From Candidatus Omnitrophota bacterium (lineage in GTDB: Bacteria > Omnitrophota > Gorgyraeia > Zapsychrales > Zapsychraceae), in the NCBI GenBank assembly GCA_018812705.1, contig JAHJCZ010000173.1, positions 1 through 44,510 of the forward strand: a stretch of DNA of 44,510 nucleotides, read 5' to 3'. The notes beneath the pieces are model-generated. The model searched no databases and had not been told where the DNA came from. It saw only the letters and a list, made by a program, of their open reading frames with translations. The translations under genes were made by a program, and so were the position numbers. Below are positions 32,276 to 44,262 of the stretch, one piece after another. Every line of letters begins with the position of its first letter. Position 1 is the first letter of the stretch.

Positions 32276-33031
32276 TTATTTTTTGCCAATGATAGGTTCT
32301 TTGAATCTAAGGTCCAGGTACTTTACTTCTTTAAAATCGATCTGCCTCTGCGACAATACCAGCGACAATACCCTGATATTTTTAGAGACTTTATCCTTAT
32401 CAACCAGCACTTCCAGTCCATTGTTCAAAAGTATCTTGATCTTTGAAAGATCGGAGACATTTATATCTTCAATCGAATAGGTTATCAGCTCTTTTTGTGA
32501 TTTGAAAACATTCGCTATGTTCAAAGCAATGTTGACCCTTTCCGAGCTTAGAGGCAATCCCAAAACCGGCGTGAACTTTTTAAATTTTGTACCTGATATC
32601 AAAGTTATTTTTTTATCCATTTTATTAATTATCTCCAAGGCCACGCCATTAGAATCCAGAACACAGAATTCATCATCAATGTTCACCTGCACGATCGGCA
32701 ATCTTTTTTTAGCGGCAATAACGATCTGATCAGGAAAGCGTTTAACCAGCTTAAGGTGAGAGACCTGAGGGTATTTTTTATTTAATTTGTTTTCAAAGGC
32801 TTTTAGGTCGATCAGGAATATATTCTTCCCCTTTAAGCGCACAAGATCATCCTTGTTTATGAACTGCAGTGAAGGATCGATGACTATTGTCTTTACTTTA
32901 AAATATTCTGATTTTGTCAAAAGAACTGAAATGCCTTTATAAAGACCAAAACAAACACCCACTATCAGGACAATGAATAAAATATATTTAATAAGTGACG
33001 GCGGTACTTGGAATTTCTTTTTTCTTGCCAT
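32276..33031 (-). CDS. ftsQ: Cell division protein FtsQ (POTRA-containing)
   Basis: 251 residues. A short basic N-terminus (MARKKKFQVPP) and one TM helix (about 14-32) precede a POTRA domain (about 38-105, YFKVKTIVIDPSLQFI, then LKLVKRFPDQIVIAAKKRLP) and the FtsQ beta domain (to about 235). It is a bitopic divisome protein with its bulk in the periplasm. The start lies 44 bases inside the 3' end of murC/ddl, a long but plausible overlap because both frames are well supported. Confidence 0.9.
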   Translation of the reverse strand: MARKKKFQVPPSLIKYILFIVLIVGVCFGLYKGISVLLTKSEYFKVKTIVIDPSLQFINKDDLVRLKGKNIFLIDLKAFENKLNKKYPQVSHLKLVKRFPDQIVIAAKKRLPIVQVNIDDEFCVLDSNGVALEIINKMDKKITLISGTKFKKFTPVLGLPLSSERVNIALNIANVFKSQKELITYSIEDINVSDLSKIKILLNNGLEVLVDKDKVSKNIRVLSLVLSQRQIDFKEVKYLDLRFKEPIIGKK

Positions 33032-35321
33032 TAGTAAGTCCTAAGATCGTTAAACATAATTGATTAAAATTTATACCTATTGCTTCTGCTGCTCTTGGAA
33101 GCAGGCTGGTTTCTGTAAAGCCGGGGATCGTATTGACCTCAAGCACATAAGGAACATTTTTATTGTCCACGATAAAATCAACCCTTGATAAACCTTTGCA
33201 GCCTAAGGCCCTGTGCGCGCGCAAAGCAATATTTTGAAGCCTTAAAGACATATAGTTAGGTATCACTGCCGGAACGATATAATCTGTTTTTCCTTTTTGA
33301 TATTTAGCCTCGAAATCAAAGAACTCATTTTTTGCAATGATCTCAATGACCGGAAGAGGCCTGTCATCAAGAATGCCTACGGTCATTTCACGCCCCTTGA
33401 TGAACTCCTCTATCAATAATTCATCGGAATATTGCCAGGCTATATCCAAGGCTACTTCCAACTCAGATTTATCCCGCGCGATAGTAACGCCAATGCTCGA
33501 ACCTTCAGTTGCAGGCTTGACGACAACCGGGAATTTCGAGAACCTGCTGATCAAATTATCGATGCCTTCATAATGGTTCTTGTTAACTGCTCGATATGAA
33601 GGCACATACAGACCACTGACCTCAAGGCTCTTTTGTGTGTGTATCTTGTTAATGGCAAGTTTGCTGGCTCTTATGCCCGAGCCTGTATAAGGTATCCCGA
33701 TCTTTTCCAGCAATGTTTGTATAACACCATCTTCCCCCAGCTTGCCATGAAGAGCGATAAATGCAGTATCGATCTGTTCAGACAGAATAACGTCCATTAT
33801 CTTGTCAACATCTCTGTCAACGATATCTATCCCGACAGCACGGCACCCTTCGGCCTTGAGAGCTTTAAGTATCGCTTTTCCCGACTTTAAAGATATCTCC
33901 CGCTCATTAGAATATCCTCCCATCAAGACGCCAACCTTGCCAAATTTTTCCACCATAAACCCGTTCTCATTTAAAGCATCAACAAAATTGCTCGCAATTC
34001 CTGTTATATCTCCAGCACCTAACATCATCACAAGGTCACCTGGCTTAGCAAGCTTGAGCAAATTACTGACGATATCCTCTTTTTTCAAACACTCAATTGG
34101 CTTAGTAAAATTATTTTTTATATACTCCGCGAAATTCTCTGCGGTAATACCGTTAACAGGCTTTTCGCTAGCCGGATAGACTTCAGTGACTATCAAGTGA
34201 TCACAGCCGTTAAAACAATTGCTGAACTCGCCCCAAAGCGATTTTAATCTTGTATATCTGTGTGGCTGAAAAGCAACAATGAGCCTTGAATCAGGCTGCC
34301 CTGCCTTAGCTGCTTCAATAACAGCTTTGATCTCAGTCGGGTGATGTGCATAATCATCGATCACCTTGATCTCATCGATATCGCCTAATAGTTGAAAGCG
34401 TCTTTGCGCACCGCTAAAGTTCGCGATACTTTCAAAAATAATATCCTTATCAATTCGCAGCGCTATTCCCAAGCGTATGCACGCAAGCGCATTTAAAATA
34501 TTATATTTTCCGGGTATCTTAAGGCTTACCTGACCTATAGATTCTCCAAAGACAACGCAATCAAAGCTGCTCAAGAATCGATCGAAACGTATATCTTTTG
34601 CGTATATATCATTATCTGAAGAAAACCCGAAAGTAGTGTACTCAACATTGTGGCCCCTTAAAAGATTAACCAGCCTCTCATCGTCGCCATTTGCGATTAT
34701 TAAGCCACCCTCCTGGGTCTTTGAAATGAATTTAGAATACGCGTTCGAAACCCCCTGCCAGTTGCCGTAATAATCCAAATGCTCAAGATCAACATTCGTT
34801 ATGATCGAATACCTAGGCGACAGGTGCAAGAAAGAACCGTCGCTTTCGTCAGCCTCAGAAACAAAAAACTCGCTTGACCCGAATCGTGCGTTCGAGGTCT
34901 CTCCCTGGATTATCCCTCCGATCGCTGCGGTAGGGTTCAATCCTGCATTAACGAGCATTTGAGCAGCCATAGAAGAGGTGGTTGTCTTGCCGTGAGCGCC
35001 GCTTACTGTAATTCCTGTATACCCGTGCATCAATCCCGCCAAAAGCTCTCCCCGGTGTATCACCGGGATCTTCTTTCTACCGGCTTCAAGAAGCTCGGGA
35101 TTCTCTTTATCAATTGCAGTTGAGACAACAACAACATCAGCTTGTTCAACATAAAGGGCAGCATGTCCCTTATGAACTTTTGCCCCTTCTTCTATAAGCC
35201 TTCTTGTTATCTTATTATCCCTAAGGTCCGAACCGGTCACCTTGTTACCTTTTGCCAAAACTATCGACGCCAGTGCGCCCATACCGATACCGCCGATACC
35301 GATAAAATGATAATGTTTCAT
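32988..35321 (-). CDS. murC/ddl: Fused UDP-N-acetylmuramate-L-alanine ligase / D-alanine-D-alanine ligase
   Basis: 777 residues, two complete enzymes in one chain. MurC fills about 1-455: HFIGIGGIGMGALASIVLAKG at the N-terminus, the ATP loop VSGAHGKTTTSSMAA near 105, and YAHHPTEIKAVI near 330. Ddl fills about 462-777: KVGVLMGGYSNEREISLKSG at its start, ALHGKLGEDGVIQTLLE near 533, VVKPATEGSSIGV near 605 and VLEVNTIPGFTETSLLPRAA near 740. The chain would add L-Ala to UDP-MurNAc and make D-Ala-D-Ala. Such fusions are known from Chlamydia. murB, often between the two, is absent here. No frameshift or linker gene is visible at the junction. Confidence 0.96.
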   Translation of the reverse strand: MKHYHFIGIGGIGMGALASIVLAKGNKVTGSDLRDNKITRRLIEEGAKVHKGHAALYVEQADVVVVSTAIDKENPELLEAGRKKIPVIHRGELLAGLMHGYTGITVSGAHGKTTTSSMAAQMLVNAGLNPTAAIGGIIQGETSNARFGSSEFFVSEADESDGSFLHLSPRYSIITNVDLEHLDYYGNWQGVSNAYSKFISKTQEGGLIIANGDDERLVNLLRGHNVEYTTFGFSSDNDIYAKDIRFDRFLSSFDCVVFGESIGQVSLKIPGKYNILNALACIRLGIALRIDKDIIFESIANFSGAQRRFQLLGDIDEIKVIDDYAHHPTEIKAVIEAAKAGQPDSRLIVAFQPHRYTRLKSLWGEFSNCFNGCDHLIVTEVYPASEKPVNGITAENFAEYIKNNFTKPIECLKKEDIVSNLLKLAKPGDLVMMLGAGDITGIASNFVDALNENGFMVEKFGKVGVLMGGYSNEREISLKSGKAILKALKAEGCRAVGIDIVDRDVDKIMDVILSEQIDTAFIALHGKLGEDGVIQTLLEKIGIPYTGSGIRASKLAINKIHTQKSLEVSGLYVPSYRAVNKNHYEGIDNLISRFSKFPVVVKPATEGSSIGVTIARDKSELEVALDIAWQYSDELLIEEFIKGREMTVGILDDRPLPVIEIIAKNEFFDFEAKYQKGKTDYIVPAVIPNYMSLRLQNIALRAHRALGCKGLSRVDFIVDNKNVPYVLEVNTIPGFTETSLLPRAAEAIGINFNQLCLTILGLTNGKKKEIPSTAVTY

Positions 35322-37232: not shown

Positions 37233-38297
37233 TTATACCAAATAAAGTTCAGCCATACCTTTATCTAGAAGTTCCTGATTTAAAAATTTACCGTCTTTAG
37301 CAATATACTCGAACTTATTATCCCCGATATCGCTATAAAATATGTCCGTCAAATACCTGTCAAACTTGTCGCTCTTATAGGTCTTTACTACAATAAAATA
37401 TCCAGGCTTTAAACACGACTCTACAAATCTCTTTGCCTTCTGGCCTTCTTTAGTGTCGATCTCAGGGGCATCGATCCCGCGCAACCTTAACTTCTGGTGA
37501 GACCAAAACCCGAACCCGCAATCTATATTGACCCAAAGCGTATCCGCGTCAATCACCTTTTCAACATAAGCCTTGAAAGTATATATCTCGTCATAAGGGA
37601 CATCTGTCAGCTCAAAATTATAACCGCCGGGGACCTTTATTGCCTTTACGACCTGGCCGTCCGAACGTTTTATTCCACCTACCGCCACCTCTTTGAAATT
37701 CCCGAACCCGCAATCGATCCCGTATATCTTCTGGTCCTTATGCTTAAGGTCGATCTCTTTTACTTTGTAATGAAAACCCTTGCCGCGCACAGTTGCAAGA
37801 ACAGGCGCTGGCGCTTTATCTTTTGATTCGACCTTGGCCTTAGCTTGCTTTTTGCTTATAACTTCTTTTTCGACGCCAATTATCGTTCTTAATTCTTCCT
37901 TGCTCAGATTTTCTTTGATCACTTTTTTCTCAAGGCTTTTACGCTTCTTCTCATCATCAACGGACAAAAGCAACTTTTGATGTGACCAGCTCAATTCAGT
38001 ACCCGGGTACTGAATTGGATTTAAAAGGAAATACTTTCTCATAAACCTTAAATTGGTTGGAGAAAAACCACTTCCATGTTTTTCATTTAAATCCCTGGAT
38101 AAATCCTCTATCAAATGCTCGCCGTAAGCCGCGCGCAGCTCGCCTTTCTGCTCATCCTCTACTATCCTTTTACCGATCTCCCAGTTCGCAGCAATAACTA
38201 TCTCGTTTACAGCCTCGACGCTCTTTTTCTTGGCCTTTTCATATATGTTCGAAATATCATTAAATAACTTATTATACTGCGTCTTTGCTACAAGCAT
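37233..38297 (-). CDS. DUF1016 (YhcG-N) fused to staphylococcal-type nuclease
   Basis: 354 residues. The N-terminal part (about 1-125) is a DUF1016 N-terminal domain: NEIVIAANWEIGKRIVEDEQ, YGEHLIEDLSRDLNEKHGSG and FSPTNLRFMRKYFLLNP, then SWSHQKLLL. A middle segment (165-235) has no clear family but contains GIDCGFGNF, echoed by NIDCGFGFW at the nuclease start. The C-terminal part (about 237-354) is an SNase domain with the equivalents of all three catalytic residues: R271 and E279 in RLRGIDAPE and R314 in DKFDRYL. YhcG proteins normally end in their own nuclease domain, so this looks like a domain swap. No signal peptide. Residues 94-102 are encoded by a perfect palindrome. It shares the strand and operon with murG. 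Confidence 0.82.
   Translation of the reverse strand: MLVAKTQYNKLFNDISNIYEKAKKKSVEAVNEIVIAANWEIGKRIVEDEQKGELRAAYGEHLIEDLSRDLNEKHGSGFSPTNLRFMRKYFLLNPIQYPGTELSWSHQKLLLSVDDEKKRKSLEKKVIKENLSKEELRTIIGVEKEVISKKQAKAKVESKDKAPAPVLATVRGKGFHYKVKEIDLKHKDQKIYGIDCGFGNFKEVAVGGIKRSDGQVVKAIKVPGGYNFELTDVPYDEIYTFKAYVEKVIDADTLWVNIDCGFGFWSHQKLRLRGIDAPEIDTKEGQKAKRFVESCLKPGYFIVVKTYKSDKFDRYLTDIFYSDIGDNKFEYIAKDGKFLNQELLDKGMAELYLV
37992..38017. repeat. Perfect 26-bp palindrome inside the DUF1016-SNase gene
   Basis: CAATTCAGTACCC (37992-38004) is followed without a loop by its exact reverse complement (38005-38017). It is in frame and encodes the residues between YFLLNP and SWSHQ, around IQYPGTEL. Confidence 0.95.
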
Positions 38298-38706: not shown

Positions 38707-40431
38707 CTAGTTTGCACCAGAATCTTCGAGCAATTTAACTGCTGCTATATTATTTATATACTTTGCCGCGGAAAGGGGCGAAATACCATTTTTATCTACA
38801 GCATTAACATCTGCATTATTTTCGATCAAAATTTTCATTATCTCAACTTGATCTGAAAGATGTTCACTTCTATACTCAAGGATAGCTGAATTCAAAAAGG
38901 ATTCTCCGAATTTTGCTGCCTTTATCAAAGGTGTTTCACCTTCTCCATTCTTCTTATTTACATCAGCACCATTAGAAATCAGTAGCTTTACTATTTCAAC
39001 ATTACCCTTTCCATCCGGAGTATTAAATGCAATGTGGTCAGCGCCTAATCCCTCAGAAGCGATCATTAATGCCGTATTACCAGACCTATCGGCAGCGTCT
39101 ACCGTGGCACCTGCGCTAATAAGCACTTTTACAAAATCAGTCTGTCCATTTTCTGATACAAGATTCAGTACATTTCCGATATCAGGATCGGCCTTGTTTT
39201 CTAATAGAAATTTAAAGATCTCCATATCGCTGATCCTTGATGCCCAATGCAATGACGTTTGATTAGTATTTAGTACAGAATTCACGTCTGCACCCGACGC
39301 AATTAAAACTTTCACAGCTTCGAAATGCCCGTTCCCTACAGCCATTATTAATGCAGTATAGTCATTGCTAGAATCCAGCATATTTGTTGTCGGAATGCTG
39401 CCAGGAATCACCCAATGTTTACAATTCAGATCAGCACCTTGGTCAATTGCCGATTTAATGTCCTCAATATTTCCTTTTAAAGAAGCCATTATTAAAGCTG
39501 CATTGGCAGCTTTTATGTTCTCTGTATCTGCTGTGCTATCAAACACCACGACAGGCGGCACTCTTTGCTCGATCAAAGAAGACCCCGCAACCTTCAGCGA
39601 CTGGCTTGCAGCAGATTTTTTTCCGGCAGCTTCGACCATCTTAACAACATCCGTTTTCATTCGTTGTTTTGCTAGATCCAGAGCTGGATTTCCATCATTA
39701 TTCTTTTCATTAAGGTCAGCACCCTTTTCGATCAGCATTTTTACTATATCAGTATCTCCTTGATCTGAAGCAATCAATAAAGCATTCATACCTTTGTTAT
39801 CTTTCAAATTGATATCAGCGCCCTTTTCGATCAGCATTTTCATTATATCCTTACGCCCATTGATCAAAGCAAACATTAATGCCGTCCAACCATCTCCATC
39901 TTTCAAATTTAGGTCAGCATTCTTTTCGATCAACGTTCTTGCTATAGATCTATGTCCATTCTCTGAAGCAGCCATTAATGCGCTAGTACCCAAAGCTGTT
40001 GTTAAATTAATTTCCGCTCCCTTTTCGAGCAGCATTGTTACTATTTCAGAATGACCTTTCCTTGCAGCATAAAACAATGCAAAAACACCATTTGGCGGCT
40101 GAAAATTAACATCAGCTCCACTATTGATCAGCATTTTTACAATTTCAATATTACCATTGCTTGAAGCAATTAATAAAGCGTTTGGCCCGCCATCAATACT
40201 AGCATTCACGTCTATCGAGTTTTGCAAAATCCTCTTAACAGCGTCAATATCTCTTTTCCCGACAGCTTTTAAAAAATCCCCGATCAGAACTTGATCATTA
40301 TCTGTAACCTCGCGTAACGGTTCTCCTTGATCAATAAGAGTAGCATTAGCATTATTCAGAAACGGACTTCCACTCAAAATGATTGCGGCAACAAACAATA
40401 TCAGAAGTAATTTTTTAATGTTTTTATTCAT
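38707..40431 (-). CDS. Secreted ankyrin-repeat protein
   Basis: 574 residues. A signal peptide (MNKNIKKLLLILFVAAIILSGSPFLNNANA) is followed by about 13 ankyrin repeats in two blocks, about 55-270 and 300-574, separated by a linker around KKSAASQSLKVAGSSLIEQR. Typical units read NALLIASSNGNIEIVKMLIN and TALMFALINGRKDIMKMLIE. Part of the array is also repetitive at the DNA level, with a 99-base period around 39710-39950. Ankyrins bind other proteins; an exported one would act in the periplasm or outside the cell. It ends in TAG; the frame stays open for a further 17 codons that look protein-like (GSSKEGATALLSAEGTK), so the original end may have been longer. Confidence 0.88.
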   Translation of the reverse strand: MNKNIKKLLLILFVAAIILSGSPFLNNANATLIDQGEPLREVTDNDQVLIGDFLKAVGKRDIDAVKRILQNSIDVNASIDGGPNALLIASSNGNIEIVKMLINSGADVNFQPPNGVFALFYAARKGHSEIVTMLLEKGAEINLTTALGTSALMAASENGHRSIARTLIEKNADLNLKDGDGWTALMFALINGRKDIMKMLIEKGADINLKDNKGMNALLIASDQGDTDIVKMLIEKGADLNEKNNDGNPALDLAKQRMKTDVVKMVEAAGKKSAASQSLKVAGSSLIEQRVPPVVVFDSTADTENIKAANAALIMASLKGNIEDIKSAIDQGADLNCKHWVIPGSIPTTNMLDSSNDYTALIMAVGNGHFEAVKVLIASGADVNSVLNTNQTSLHWASRISDMEIFKFLLENKADPDIGNVLNLVSENGQTDFVKVLISAGATVDAADRSGNTALMIASEGLGADHIAFNTPDGKGNVEIVKLLISNGADVNKKNGEGETPLIKAAKFGESFLNSAILEYRSEHLSDQVEIMKILIENNADVNAVDKNGISPLSAAKYINNIAAVKLLEDSGAN

Positions 40432-40621: not shown

Positions 40622-43600
40622 CTATTCAATAGTCGCTTTGGAAAGCTCGATCGATTCCTCGTCCTCTTCCCTCTTAGGCTCAAGCCCCAGCAACATCATA
40701 ATATTATTTATCGGCGTAACATTAATAATAATCGGCACAAACCCATCGATCCCCATCTTCAATAATGGATCAAACGAGTCCGGCGCAAACTGGATCTCAA
40801 CCCCACTGCCGGTACGCTCCACATCAATCCCATTCATGTCAATACCACCGACTTGATCAGAAGAAAGTTTTTCCGCTACCTCTTTCAAAACATCTTCAGG
40901 ATCCTGGTCACCGTTGATCCTTACTACTTTGTCTTCACGTGCCGCAATAACAGCTTTTGTAAGATCATTAAAGATACCCATCCTGGCATCAACCGCATCT
41001 TCATTCTTATCGTCTTGTCTATCCTGCCTGTCAGGATTATTTGCATTTAAACGCATCCTTGAAACCTCTTCGGGAACATCAATAACAAGATAACGGTCAA
41101 TTGCCATATTGTGTATACTTAAGAAGTCCTCAAGCGATTGAGCAGAACTCTCTTCGCGAGGATAACCATCAAGAACAAATCCTTTCTTTGCATCATCCAT
41201 CAACAATCTGTTCTGTATAATTCTATCAATAATCTCATTATCAACTAGTTCACCATTTATTAGTTTTGACTTAACATGCGCTCTTTCTATTTCAGAAGTT
41301 CCATAATCATTGATCCCGTCGTCAACTTCACGCAGCAATTGCCCTGCGCTAATGTGAGGAACCCCGATAACCTTTACGAGCTCTTTAACAACAGTACCCT
41401 TACCGGATGCCGGAAGCCCATGAACAACCAGCCTATTAAAATCAGTTGTGATCTTTATTTCGTTAGTACTAACCGCTTTGTTGGCATCCGATGTATCCTG
41501 ATATTCCCCAGGCTGCGCCTCCTTCTCATCACCCAATATCGCAGCGTCTTTCACATCCGTCTCAACGTGCATATGGATTCGGCCTTTACGTTTTTCGCCC
41601 ACATTTAGCCAGGCTTTGGAGTTGGGGTTGTTGATTCCGTTTGGGGCGTCAGTTAGGAATTCTACGCTGGTGATGTTTGCGTACGAGTCTGTGTTGCCAC
41701 TCCAGATGTGGGGGTGTTGGAACATTTCTCCGTCGACTAAATATGTTCGGCGGATCCTTCTTTCTGCGTCGGTTATTATTGCCTGCCAGCGGCCTTGCTC
41801 GTCTGTTTCTACATCTGTATATGTCCTATCGACTGCGCCTGCTGCTACGATATTTCCTTCATTAAAATTCAGGTGTTCCTGATCCTCTGAATCAAGCGCG
41901 ATACGCTCGCCTGTGGGTATTCCCTTTTCATCTGCGTCTAGAACGCTCCTTGCCTTAAGCTCAAGCGTGGTAAATCTATTTGTGCTTATGCCGTATTCGT
42001 GAAGGCCTACTGCGTTATAAACTTTTTTATCGTCAAGATTTTCCACTTCCACATCATAAAATACATCCTCGCCATCTATATGTATCGTCATTGTTAATTT
42101 TGACCGTCCGAAATGTTCCAAGATATCAGGATGATCTGCAGCGTCAATTGAAGCTCGAATAAAAGCGCCTTCTTCATCGATGCCTGTATCTTCCAAAATC
42201 CATTGCTGATTTCTAACCAAGCCATCCTTAGGATAACCTGTTGCGGCCTCAATCTTGACTGATTCGAGCTCATTAATATCCTGACGCGTTCCATTATATT
42301 CAAACTGTCCATTCTCAAGCCTGCCGACCCAGGGGCTCATTATTACCTGACCGCCGCTGCCGATAACGTCAGACGCCGGCCTGTAGATCGTATATCCATT
42401 TACAATAAGAGAATGTATTTTGAAGCCAAAACCGGGCACAACTGAAAAAGAAGAATCGGTCGTATTATCTTTGATGGTCAATACTTCCTGATGATTATTA
42501 ACCTCTACCGAACCGCTATAAGTGCCGCTTGCCTTGATCGCATCAAACTTTTCACGGAACGCTTCTGAAAGCATCGACGTATCGACTGGATTAACAGCAC
42601 CCTTGAACCTGTTAACAATTTCATCCAATTGTGAATATACATCCAGGTCACTTAGGTCTACGACCTGAATTCCCTGCGTCCTTGCTTGTTCCAGGAATTT
42701 ATCATTCGTATCATCTAAAGAAAGTATCCAGCGAACATTCGCTGAACTATTTTTCGTTAATGTAACAGTTTTGGGACCTAAGGCCCTTGAATTTATAACA
42801 GGACTATCTGATCTTCTTGAGCCAATAAGAGTTTTTCCTCCGTCATTATCAACCCACCTTACGTTTGAGCTGCCTGCAGATAGAACTTTTAAGCCCCGCA
42901 TTTGCTCAAGTAATTTTATAGACAAAGCACTTTTATCCCCGCCATTATCGGCAACCAGCAAAATACCGCCTTCAACATCATCAAACTGAAGGATCTCGCC
43001 CGGCACAAACATTTCTCTTGTTGGATATTCTTCATTCTCAAAAGAAGGCAAATTCACTGCCTGGCCATCTTTCTGCGCAGTTATCCCTAATTCAACATCA
43101 AACGTTTCTCCGACAACAGACATCCTGACCACGTCTTTATTGTAAGTTGTTTCATTCTCTACTGCGTTATCCCTAAAACCTCCTGAAAAATATTTTCTCG
43201 GGATCACTTCCTGGCTTAGCTCGTCATAATCCTCTTTGATAAAATCAAAAACACCCTTTTTATAGGCCTGCATATATTGCTCGTATATCTCTTCCTTAAA
43301 AGCCTTATCATCCAGCTCAACGCCTGCTGTCTTATTTTGGTCAACATAAATTTCTGAGAGTATTGAATTTTTGATCGTTTCCTTGTACCACTTGGCGAGT
43401 ATCAAGGAATGGTATATCTGGCGCAGAGGTGCGAAATTCTTTCCTTCATTTACTTCCTTTTCAATTTCGGGAATGATAAGCTCTCGAATGATCGATTTTC
43501 CCAGCTCCATTGTTGATTGGTCTTCTGTCTCTTGTCTTTTGTCATTGGTCATTGCAATGTAATCGCTATCAAGCATGACCTTCAACTTGCTGTTAACAAC

Positions 43601-44221
43601 GTAAACTGTATTTCCGTTCTCGTAAACGGTCGCCTGGTCAGGAAGTATCCATACCTTATTGAAAGTATCAACAGGTATATCAGTATTTCCATATTCTTCT
43701 TGTGCCTTCTTATATATCCTTGCCCAGAACTCTTTTCCGAGTTCATCTTCGGGGTACATTAATGAGGCGGTCAATTGTTTTAAAATATAATCCTGCGCTA
43801 ACAGGTCGCGTCCGAGCTCGGTCTTGCCTAGCTCTTCAGGGATAATTCGGTCGTCTTCGTAGGGAGAAAGGTTGACCCAAAGGTCATTTTTTGGGACTGT
43901 CATTGAAGCCAGAAAATATTTAATGAGCTTTTGCGATTCCTCTTTGACTTGAGCCTTGTCAAAATCAGTATTCCCGCTATCAACGATAAAGTTGAATTTA
44001 AGAGGGTCATCAGGATTTATTGTCATTCCTTTTAGCAGGACAGGAACAAATGCCGGAGATATTGTTACCATTGCTCCCAGCAGAGGCAAATTCAGCATTG
44101 CAATGCTCTGGGCAAATCCGGGGCTTGGTATCACAGAGCAAAATATAAGCGAAACCGCGATAAAAGACGACAATGCCCGGTAAATAAAACCGGATCGTCT
44201 CTTTTCCATATAAACTATCAT
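40622..44221 (-). CDS. Large secreted modular protein: Omnitrophota-type N-terminus, aldose-epimerase-like and adenylate-kinase-like domains
   Basis: 1199 residues. AGGAG lies 8 bases before the ATG. In order: signal peptide (about 6-38, ending PSPGFAQ); a helical block about 40-370 with WVNLSPYEDDRIIPEELG at 115 and DLLAQDYILKQLTASLMYPE shortly after; a mixed region about 395-560; an aldose-1-epimerase/galactose-mutarotase-like domain about 590-887 (IMSPWVGRLENGQFEYNG, TGYPKDGLVRNQQW); an adenylate-kinase-like domain about 929-1120 with P-loop GLPASGKGT (935-943), ISAGQLLRE, FVLDGYPRE and a short lid RQDDKNEDAVDARM; and a C-terminal block from GGIDMN (1125) through GFVPIIINVTPINN. The nucleotide-kinase fold is normally cytosolic, so its presence behind a signal peptide is odd. 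Function is unknown. Confidence 0.85.
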   Translation of the reverse strand: MIVYMEKRRSGFIYRALSSFIAVSLIFCSVIPSPGFAQSIAMLNLPLLGAMVTISPAFVPVLLKGMTINPDDPLKFNFIVDSGNTDFDKAQVKEESQKLIKYFLASMTVPKNDLWVNLSPYEDDRIIPEELGKTELGRDLLAQDYILKQLTASLMYPEDELGKEFWARIYKKAQEEYGNTDIPVDTFNKVWILPDQATVYENGNTVYVVNSKLKVMLDSDYIAMTNDKRQETEDQSTMELGKSIIRELIIPEIEKEVNEGKNFAPLRQIYHSLILAKWYKETIKNSILSEIYVDQNKTAGVELDDKAFKEEIYEQYMQAYKKGVFDFIKEDYDELSQEVIPRKYFSGGFRDNAVENETTYNKDVVRMSVVGETFDVELGITAQKDGQAVNLPSFENEEYPTREMFVPGEILQFDDVEGGILLVADNGGDKSALSIKLLEQMRGLKVLSAGSSNVRWVDNDGGKTLIGSRRSDSPVINSRALGPKTVTLTKNSSANVRWILSLDDTNDKFLEQARTQGIQVVDLSDLDVYSQLDEIVNRFKGAVNPVDTSMLSEAFREKFDAIKASGTYSGSVEVNNHQEVLTIKDNTTDSSFSVVPGFGFKIHSLIVNGYTIYRPASDVIGSGGQVIMSPWVGRLENGQFEYNGTRQDINELESVKIEAATGYPKDGLVRNQQWILEDTGIDEEGAFIRASIDAADHPDILEHFGRSKLTMTIHIDGEDVFYDVEVENLDDKKVYNAVGLHEYGISTNRFTTLELKARSVLDADEKGIPTGERIALDSEDQEHLNFNEGNIVAAGAVDRTYTDVETDEQGRWQAIITDAERRIRRTYLVDGEMFQHPHIWSGNTDSYANITSVEFLTDAPNGINNPNSKAWLNVGEKRKGRIHMHVETDVKDAAILGDEKEAQPGEYQDTSDANKAVSTNEIKITTDFNRLVVHGLPASGKGTVVKELVKVIGVPHISAGQLLREVDDGINDYGTSEIERAHVKSKLINGELVDNEIIDRIIQNRLLMDDAKKGFVLDGYPREESSAQSLEDFLSIHNMAIDRYLVIDVPEEVSRMRLNANNPDRQDRQDDKNEDAVDARMGIFNDLTKAVIAAREDKVVRINGDQDPEDVLKEVAEKLSSDQVGGIDMNGIDVERTGSGVEIQFAPDSFDPLLKMGIDGFVPIIINVTPINNIMMLLGLEPKREEDEESIELSKATIE

Positions 44222-44262
44222 CTCAACTTCTCCTTTTAAAAACTTTCAGATATTGTAAGAAA

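Follow-up and report, generated by a model that had tools for sequence, protein, structure and literature searches.

The window, a 44,510-nt stretch of DNA from Candidatus Omnitrophota bacterium (contig JAHJCZ010000173.1 of assembly GCA_018812705.1, positions 1 to 44,510), carries near one end a gene for a modular protein, in which a signal peptide and a conserved head, the N-module, are followed by a mutarotase-like domain, an adenylate kinase domain, and a conserved tail, the C-tail. The gene is a member of an undescribed Omnitrophota family that shares the head and the tail around interchangeable cargo. Residues 1–350 recur in 11 other proteins of the same genome with 47–56% identity, and at least eight of these paralogues also share the last ~65 residues. 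With the window protein, regarded in the original prediction as a single odd fusion, the family has 12 members in this genome. Among the complete family members gathered, 138 of 144 contain both the N-module and the C-tail. The window protein matches the N-module profile with an E-value of 9.5e-170, but this profile was built from 12 sequences including the window protein itself, and the independent support is the identity to the paralogues. Its C-tail fits the family pattern GGID...GFxPVIINITPI.

The head is not covered by any Pfam or NCBIfam model, and no relative in the PDB was found by sequence. The AlphaFold2 model of the N-module, derived from 111 sequences, has a predicted local distance difference test score (pLDDT) of 88.8 and a predicted template modelling score of 0.84, and it has no structural match in the PDB (best E 0.48) or among viral models. 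The best 80 relatives in 84,980 species genomes derive from Omnitrophota assemblies, apart from four loci recorded as two Planctomycetales, one Elulimicrobium, and one plain bacterium, which may be misnamed. N-module matches are present in 137 of 384 sampled Omnitrophota genomes; they are strong in nearly all genomes of the order of the window and mostly weaker in the other families of the class, and the family loci run to hundreds across this one order. The copy number is 12 here and 12, 14, and 17 in three relatives. Two genomes, G114 (2.6 Mb) and G087 (2.2 Mb), contain 81 and 58 matches, some of them fragments, an unusually large share of the genome. The ratio of nonsynonymous to synonymous substitution rates (dN/dS) is 0.07 for the N-module of the window gene and 0.10–0.19 for the cargo in four full-length ortholog pairs of sister paralogues, showing purifying selection on both.

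The signal peptide of the window protein, claimed in the original prediction, is borne out by the gene itself and by the family. It lies inside the gene because a Shine-Dalgarno sequence (AAAGGAG) precedes the ATG at 44221 by ~8 nt, and it consists of an EKRR n-region, a hydrophobic core, and a GFA/Q junction; the model of this N-terminus shows a helix at residues 12–30 and low confidence at residues 35–39. A strong hydrophobic core is also present in 170 of 176 family members. Such sequence criteria support export of the window protein. It is highly improbable that the N-terminal helix is a mere membrane anchor, or that translation begins downstream, and that the chain is an ordinary cytosolic multi-enzyme fusion: the cytosolic type of the cargo would suit this, but the ribosome-binding site at the upstream ATG is strong, the signal peptide with its AQ junction is conserved, the positively charged N-region puts the body outside, and the loss of cysteine in these chains would be left unexplained.

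This loss extends across the whole family. The mature chains of the 176 members contain 159 cysteines in 255,983 residues (0.06%), and 97 members contain none. In the same loci, the cysteine content is 1.14% for cytosolic-type open reading frames (ORFs) and 0.50% for other soluble ORFs with signal peptides, the latter class picked by a simple home-made filter. The 12 members of the own genome have two cysteines in 13,344 residues, compared with 127 in 11,178 residues of 27 other window genes, and the window protein has none past the signal peptide. The same difference is observed within single enzymes: PGK contains 0.66% cysteine as a stand-alone protein and 0.03% as cargo, and adk contains 1.98% as a stand-alone protein and none in the window chain. 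The tryptophan content of the family is hardly changed; hence, the depletion is specific. The cysteines that persist are frequently catalytic. Five large ORFs with GAPDH cargo comprise 14,304 residues in total; four have the N-module, and the other is truncated at the 5' end but contains the C-tail. Seven of their 12 mature cysteines are the GAPDH catalytic cysteine, retained in seven of seven domains. Cysteines of a radical-SAM-like CxxxCxxC motif are retained in two family members (L065 4252–8835 and L105 2339–6646). A cysteine purge that spares catalytic cysteines is hard to explain unless the chains are exported and the enzymes are working. In type V secreted proteins, the cysteine content is also low, as large disulfide loops would hinder passage through the outer membrane (PMC8151025).

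The cargo of the members scanned, assigned by Pfam, represents nearly every glycolytic step from PGI to enolase: PGI (E down to 3e-198), PFK, class II aldolase, TIM, GAPDH, PGK, iPGM, and enolase. Other sugar-related cargo includes FBPase, phosphoglucomutase, phosphomannose isomerase, amylomaltase, debranching enzyme, starch synthase, and UDP-glucose pyrophosphorylase, and further cargo includes adenylate kinase, NDK, Maf, LpxC, methyltransferases, and others. In the own genome, the members carry UDP-sugar pyrophosphorylase, starch-synthase-like glycosyltransferases, histidine-kinase-type ATPases, and unassigned domains. The clearest case is L062:10001–18973 from Candidatus Zapsychrus exili, a chain of 2991 residues that comprises a signal peptide, the N-module, two GAPDH, PGK, enolase, aldolase, and the C-tail. 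Its two GAPDH-like domains differ from each other and stand in tandem, each with the catalytic cysteine. In ~12 genomes of the order, divergent PGK copies exist within large ORFs besides the ordinary stand-alone PGK genes, and GAPDH follows the same pattern; housekeeping PGK, GAPDH, and adk exist as separate genes. The N-module and the C-tail occur together in nine of the large PGK ORFs retrieved with both ends present. A 2419-aa protein with an ADK domain (L176) was rejected as a family member; it is a housekeeping-type adk, rich in cysteine, that lies at the edge of a contig. In another family of the order, G396 and G395 contain ORFs of 8413 and 8222 aa (L279 1–10000, L175, L281) with 0.09–0.18% cysteine and either ADK twice or PGK; the D-x-A-M motif described below is nearly absent, the parts read showed no N-module, and these ORFs possibly represent a second, related design.

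Such cargo allows other uses to be weighed. The copies of cytosolic enzymes could be dead and serve a surface coat as folded building blocks or as modules that bind ligands, as would fit the mutarotase-like domain of the window protein and several PGK copies, in which catalytic residues have been lost. This is quite unlikely, as the GAPDH catalytic cysteine persists in every domain despite the family-wide purge, the PGK sites of L062, L252, and L275 are near-intact, and the CxxxCxxC cysteines of L065 and L105 are kept. Alternatively, the chains could stay in the cell envelope, perhaps in an enlarged periplasm-like compartment as in the Planctomycetes–Verrucomicrobia–Chlamydiae (PVC) group, and conduct part of glycolysis and glycogen metabolism for the own cell without any prey. 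The signal peptide, the retained catalytic cysteines, and the near-complete series of glycolytic steps agree with such a location, yet the envelope would then have to contain ATP, NAD, and sugar phosphates, the cytoplasm has housekeeping copies of its own, and the cysteine depletion goes approximately eightfold beyond that of other exported proteins; we consider it unlikely.

In the window protein, the adenylate kinase domain matches the Pfam model PF00406 at residues 934–1093 (E 1.9e-27; 96.7 bits against a cut-off of 26.8). Its AlphaFold2 model reaches a pLDDT of 88–96 and superimposes by Foldseek on 2cdn with a template modelling (TM) score of 0.88 by target length, so that the predicted kinase with an intact P-loop, DGYPR motif, and short lid is confirmed as a fold. 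The P-loop GLPASGKGT starts at residue 935 and DGYPR at residue 1018, and the arginine of LLRE, the lid arginine, the aspartate pair of the lid (DD), and the arginine of ARM are also retained. Simultaneously, STGD is changed to SAGQ, with both T and D replaced, and the AMP-site glutamine after DGxPR is altered; overall, the active site is mostly intact. The lid is short and cysteine-free, whereas the housekeeping adk of the order has a long lid bearing cysteine. Loss of kinase activity, one of the options first raised, is not favoured, as the P-loop, DGYPR, and lid arginines remain, and the kinase is probably active. The domain in front of it matches the aldose epimerase model PF01263 at residues 595–884 (E 2.1e-14; 54 bits against a cut-off of 27). 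The original assignment therefore stands by profile, but the structure model of this part has low confidence; its alignment contained no homologues, and the fold rests on sequence profiles for that reason. Within the catalytic set of GalM, which we take to be two histidines and a glutamate, the first histidine is replaced by D666 and the glutamate by T851, and only H741 is retained. With two of the three catalytic residues replaced, the domain does look catalytically dead and probably serves to bind sugar or as a structural module. The same combination of epimerase and kinase was not found elsewhere in the order. The orthologue from a sister genome (L033), 83% identical across the N-module, is truncated by the contig end, and the uniqueness of the combination is not established for this reason.

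Table 1. Parts of the window gene, its upstream signal, and the encoded protein.
Feature	Position	Strand	Basis
Whole gene, exported modular protein, 1199 aa	40622..44221	-	ORF call
Shine-Dalgarno region, AAAGGAG ~8 nt upstream of ATG	44222..44245	-	sequence
Sec-type signal peptide, residues 1–37, predicted cleavage between A37 and Q38	44111..44221	-	sequence and model
Conserved N-module, residues 38–348, C-terminal end RKYFSGG	43178..44110	-	paralogue comparison, predicted fold
Region of residues 349–546, no Pfam match	42584..43177	-	Pfam
Linker motif DTSMLS, residues 547–552, ahead of the mutarotase-like domain	42566..42583	-	motif scan
Aldose 1-epimerase (galactose mutarotase)-like domain, residues 595–884	41570..42439	-	Pfam, residue check
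Degenerate linker motif DAAILG, residues 892–897, at the mutarotase/kinase junction	41531..41548	-	motif scan
Short-lid adenylate kinase domain, residues 930–1120, no cysteine	40862..41434	-	Pfam, fold model
Conserved C-tail, residues 1123–1187 (QVGGIDMN...GFVPIIINVTPINNIMMLLGLEP)	40661..40855	-	family comparison

Between the cargo domains, a short linker motif, D-x-[A/S]-M, is enriched. It occurs 280 times in 201,770 cargo residues, compared with 42 times in shuffled sequences. Aspartate at this offset from [A/S]M occurs 280 times, against 36–66 times at the other offsets tested, an excess of at least fourfold, and the motif is preferentially continued by L and then S, A, or G. Of 65 sites in chains with Pfam annotation, 64 fall outside the domains, whose coverage of the sequence is 28% (p 2e-8); of 54 other [SA]M pairs, 17 fall inside. 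In L062, the motifs are located between GAPDH, PGK, enolase, the aldolase region, and the C-tail, and in L275 they stand between consecutive enzymes and directly ahead of the C-tail. An origin of the motif as a recombination site in the DNA was rejected: its codon choice is variable and shows no more than a mild GAC/GCG/CTG bias, and the motif is therefore conserved mainly in protein. Copying of linkers possibly contributes to the motif, and the simplest reading is a putative protease site.

Taken as a whole, the family probably consists of Sec-exported, polyprotein-like, cysteine-purged enzyme carriers with interchangeable cargo, and this points to sugar and nucleotide chemistry conducted by these uncultured bacteria beyond their own cytoplasm. 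In the mechanism envisaged, Sec would carry the chain out of the cytoplasm, and the N-module and the C-tail would be recognised by dedicated machinery of the surface or outer membrane. Without cysteine, the chain would not become knotted by disulfides in the periplasm or on its way through the outer membrane; the cargo would fold outside, and cleavage at D-x-A-M may free single enzymes. The member in the window would deliver a probably active adenylate kinase together with a module of mutarotase fold that probably only binds sugar. Cargo for glycolysis and glycogen metabolism makes sense where the metabolites and nucleotides of another organism are present, such as prey or host contents, a lysate, or a prey-facing compartment. 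We tentatively propose, as one possibility, that a dedicated export route places a working glycolysis, glycogen, and nucleotide set outside as cysteine-free polyproteins cut at D-x-A-M, so that the metabolites of other cells are processed in place before uptake.

Somewhat doubtful is a use as delivered effectors, in which the enzymes act within a prey or host cell and redirect its sugar and nucleotide pools. The cargo is of a cytosolic, nucleotide-requiring type, the cysteine purge and the conserved C-tail fit passage beyond the periplasm, and a predatory or parasitic lifestyle is proposed for Omnitrophota (PMC10066038). Against it, no injection apparatus is linked to the family, and the ATP/ADP translocase (PF03219) was found in 0 of 81 genomes of the order, with the control also silent. 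Of the suggestion that the protein belongs to an unrecognised Omnitrophota system, possibly predatory, the family itself is established; predation or action inside a host is unproven, and no host or injection machine was found.

Several observations weigh against the carrier interpretation preferred here. No dedicated secretion machinery for the family was identified, and two near-complete genomes from this order, G107 and G207, lack the family. A normal periplasm would not be expected to contain nucleotides and NAD. Some of the cargo is degenerate, namely the mutarotase-like domain here with two of three catalytic residues gone, the ADK of L177, and the PGK copies of L188, L276, and L278. Furthermore, 65 of the 176 members have no D.[SA]M site, and therefore cleavage at this motif cannot be universal.

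The gene adjoining the window gene (38707–40431, minus strand) encodes an ankyrin-repeat protein of 574 aa that has a signal peptide and a single cysteine; ankyrin proteins that are exported often take part in interactions with a host. On the same strand, an ORF of 354 aa (37233–38297) seems by eye to combine a DUF1016-like nuclease N-terminus with a staphylococcal-nuclease-like C-terminus, and an ORF of 777 aa (32988–35321) resembles by eye a fusion of MurC and D-Ala-D-Ala ligase. Marginal matches only were obtained with anti-phage models.

The carrier family provides a concrete and testable entry point to the interactions between uncultured Omnitrophota and other cells. Its N-module adds a fold for which the PDB contains no match, its C-tail should help to trace a still unknown apparatus for secretion or anchoring, and its cargo includes natural cysteine-free forms of well-studied enzymes; a comparison of G107 and G207 with the carriers could expose the export machinery. 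We know of no described parallel for Sec export of most of the glycolytic pathway as modular cysteine-purged chains. A literature search on exported glycolytic enzymes or polyproteins in Omnitrophota retrieved nothing relevant, with subscription journals and preprints mostly outside its coverage, and an earlier description of the family elsewhere cannot be excluded.

Several known systems resemble the carriers in part. The window kinase has the P-loop, DGxPR, lid arginines, and fold of short-lid adenylate kinases (PF00406), but it has no cysteine, forms part of a 1199-aa chain that sequence criteria mark as exported, and is altered at STGD. Similarly, the mutarotase-like domain matches the GalM family (PF01263) over nearly its whole length with one catalytic histidine kept, but differs at Asp666 and Thr851. 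Autotransporters and two-partner secretion (TPS) proteins of type V resemble the carriers in the Sec signal, the large passenger, and the low cysteine content (PMC8151025). Unlike them, the carriers have a C-tail of ~65 aa and cytosolic-type cargo, and neither a beta-barrel translocator nor a TPS domain was matched by Pfam in the window protein or above the cut-off in the cargo scans. Type IX cargo also combines an N-terminal Sec signal with a conserved C-terminal domain on unrelated proteins; however, the carriers have the N-module in addition, no type IX model of Pfam or NCBIfam matches the C-tail, and SprA_N was found in 0 of 81 genomes of the order, with the control also silent. Giant ORFs are known from Omnitrophota, and the available portion of their description does not include the module family or its metabolic cargo (PMC10066038). 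These ORFs, including the Velamenicoccus coat protein, share with the carriers the phylum, the prediction of very large surface or secreted proteins, and a part proposed for them in predation or parasitism; they are described as poor in annotated domains and in conservation (PMC10066038), whereas the carriers possess a strongly conserved head and tail around recognisable cargo from central metabolism.
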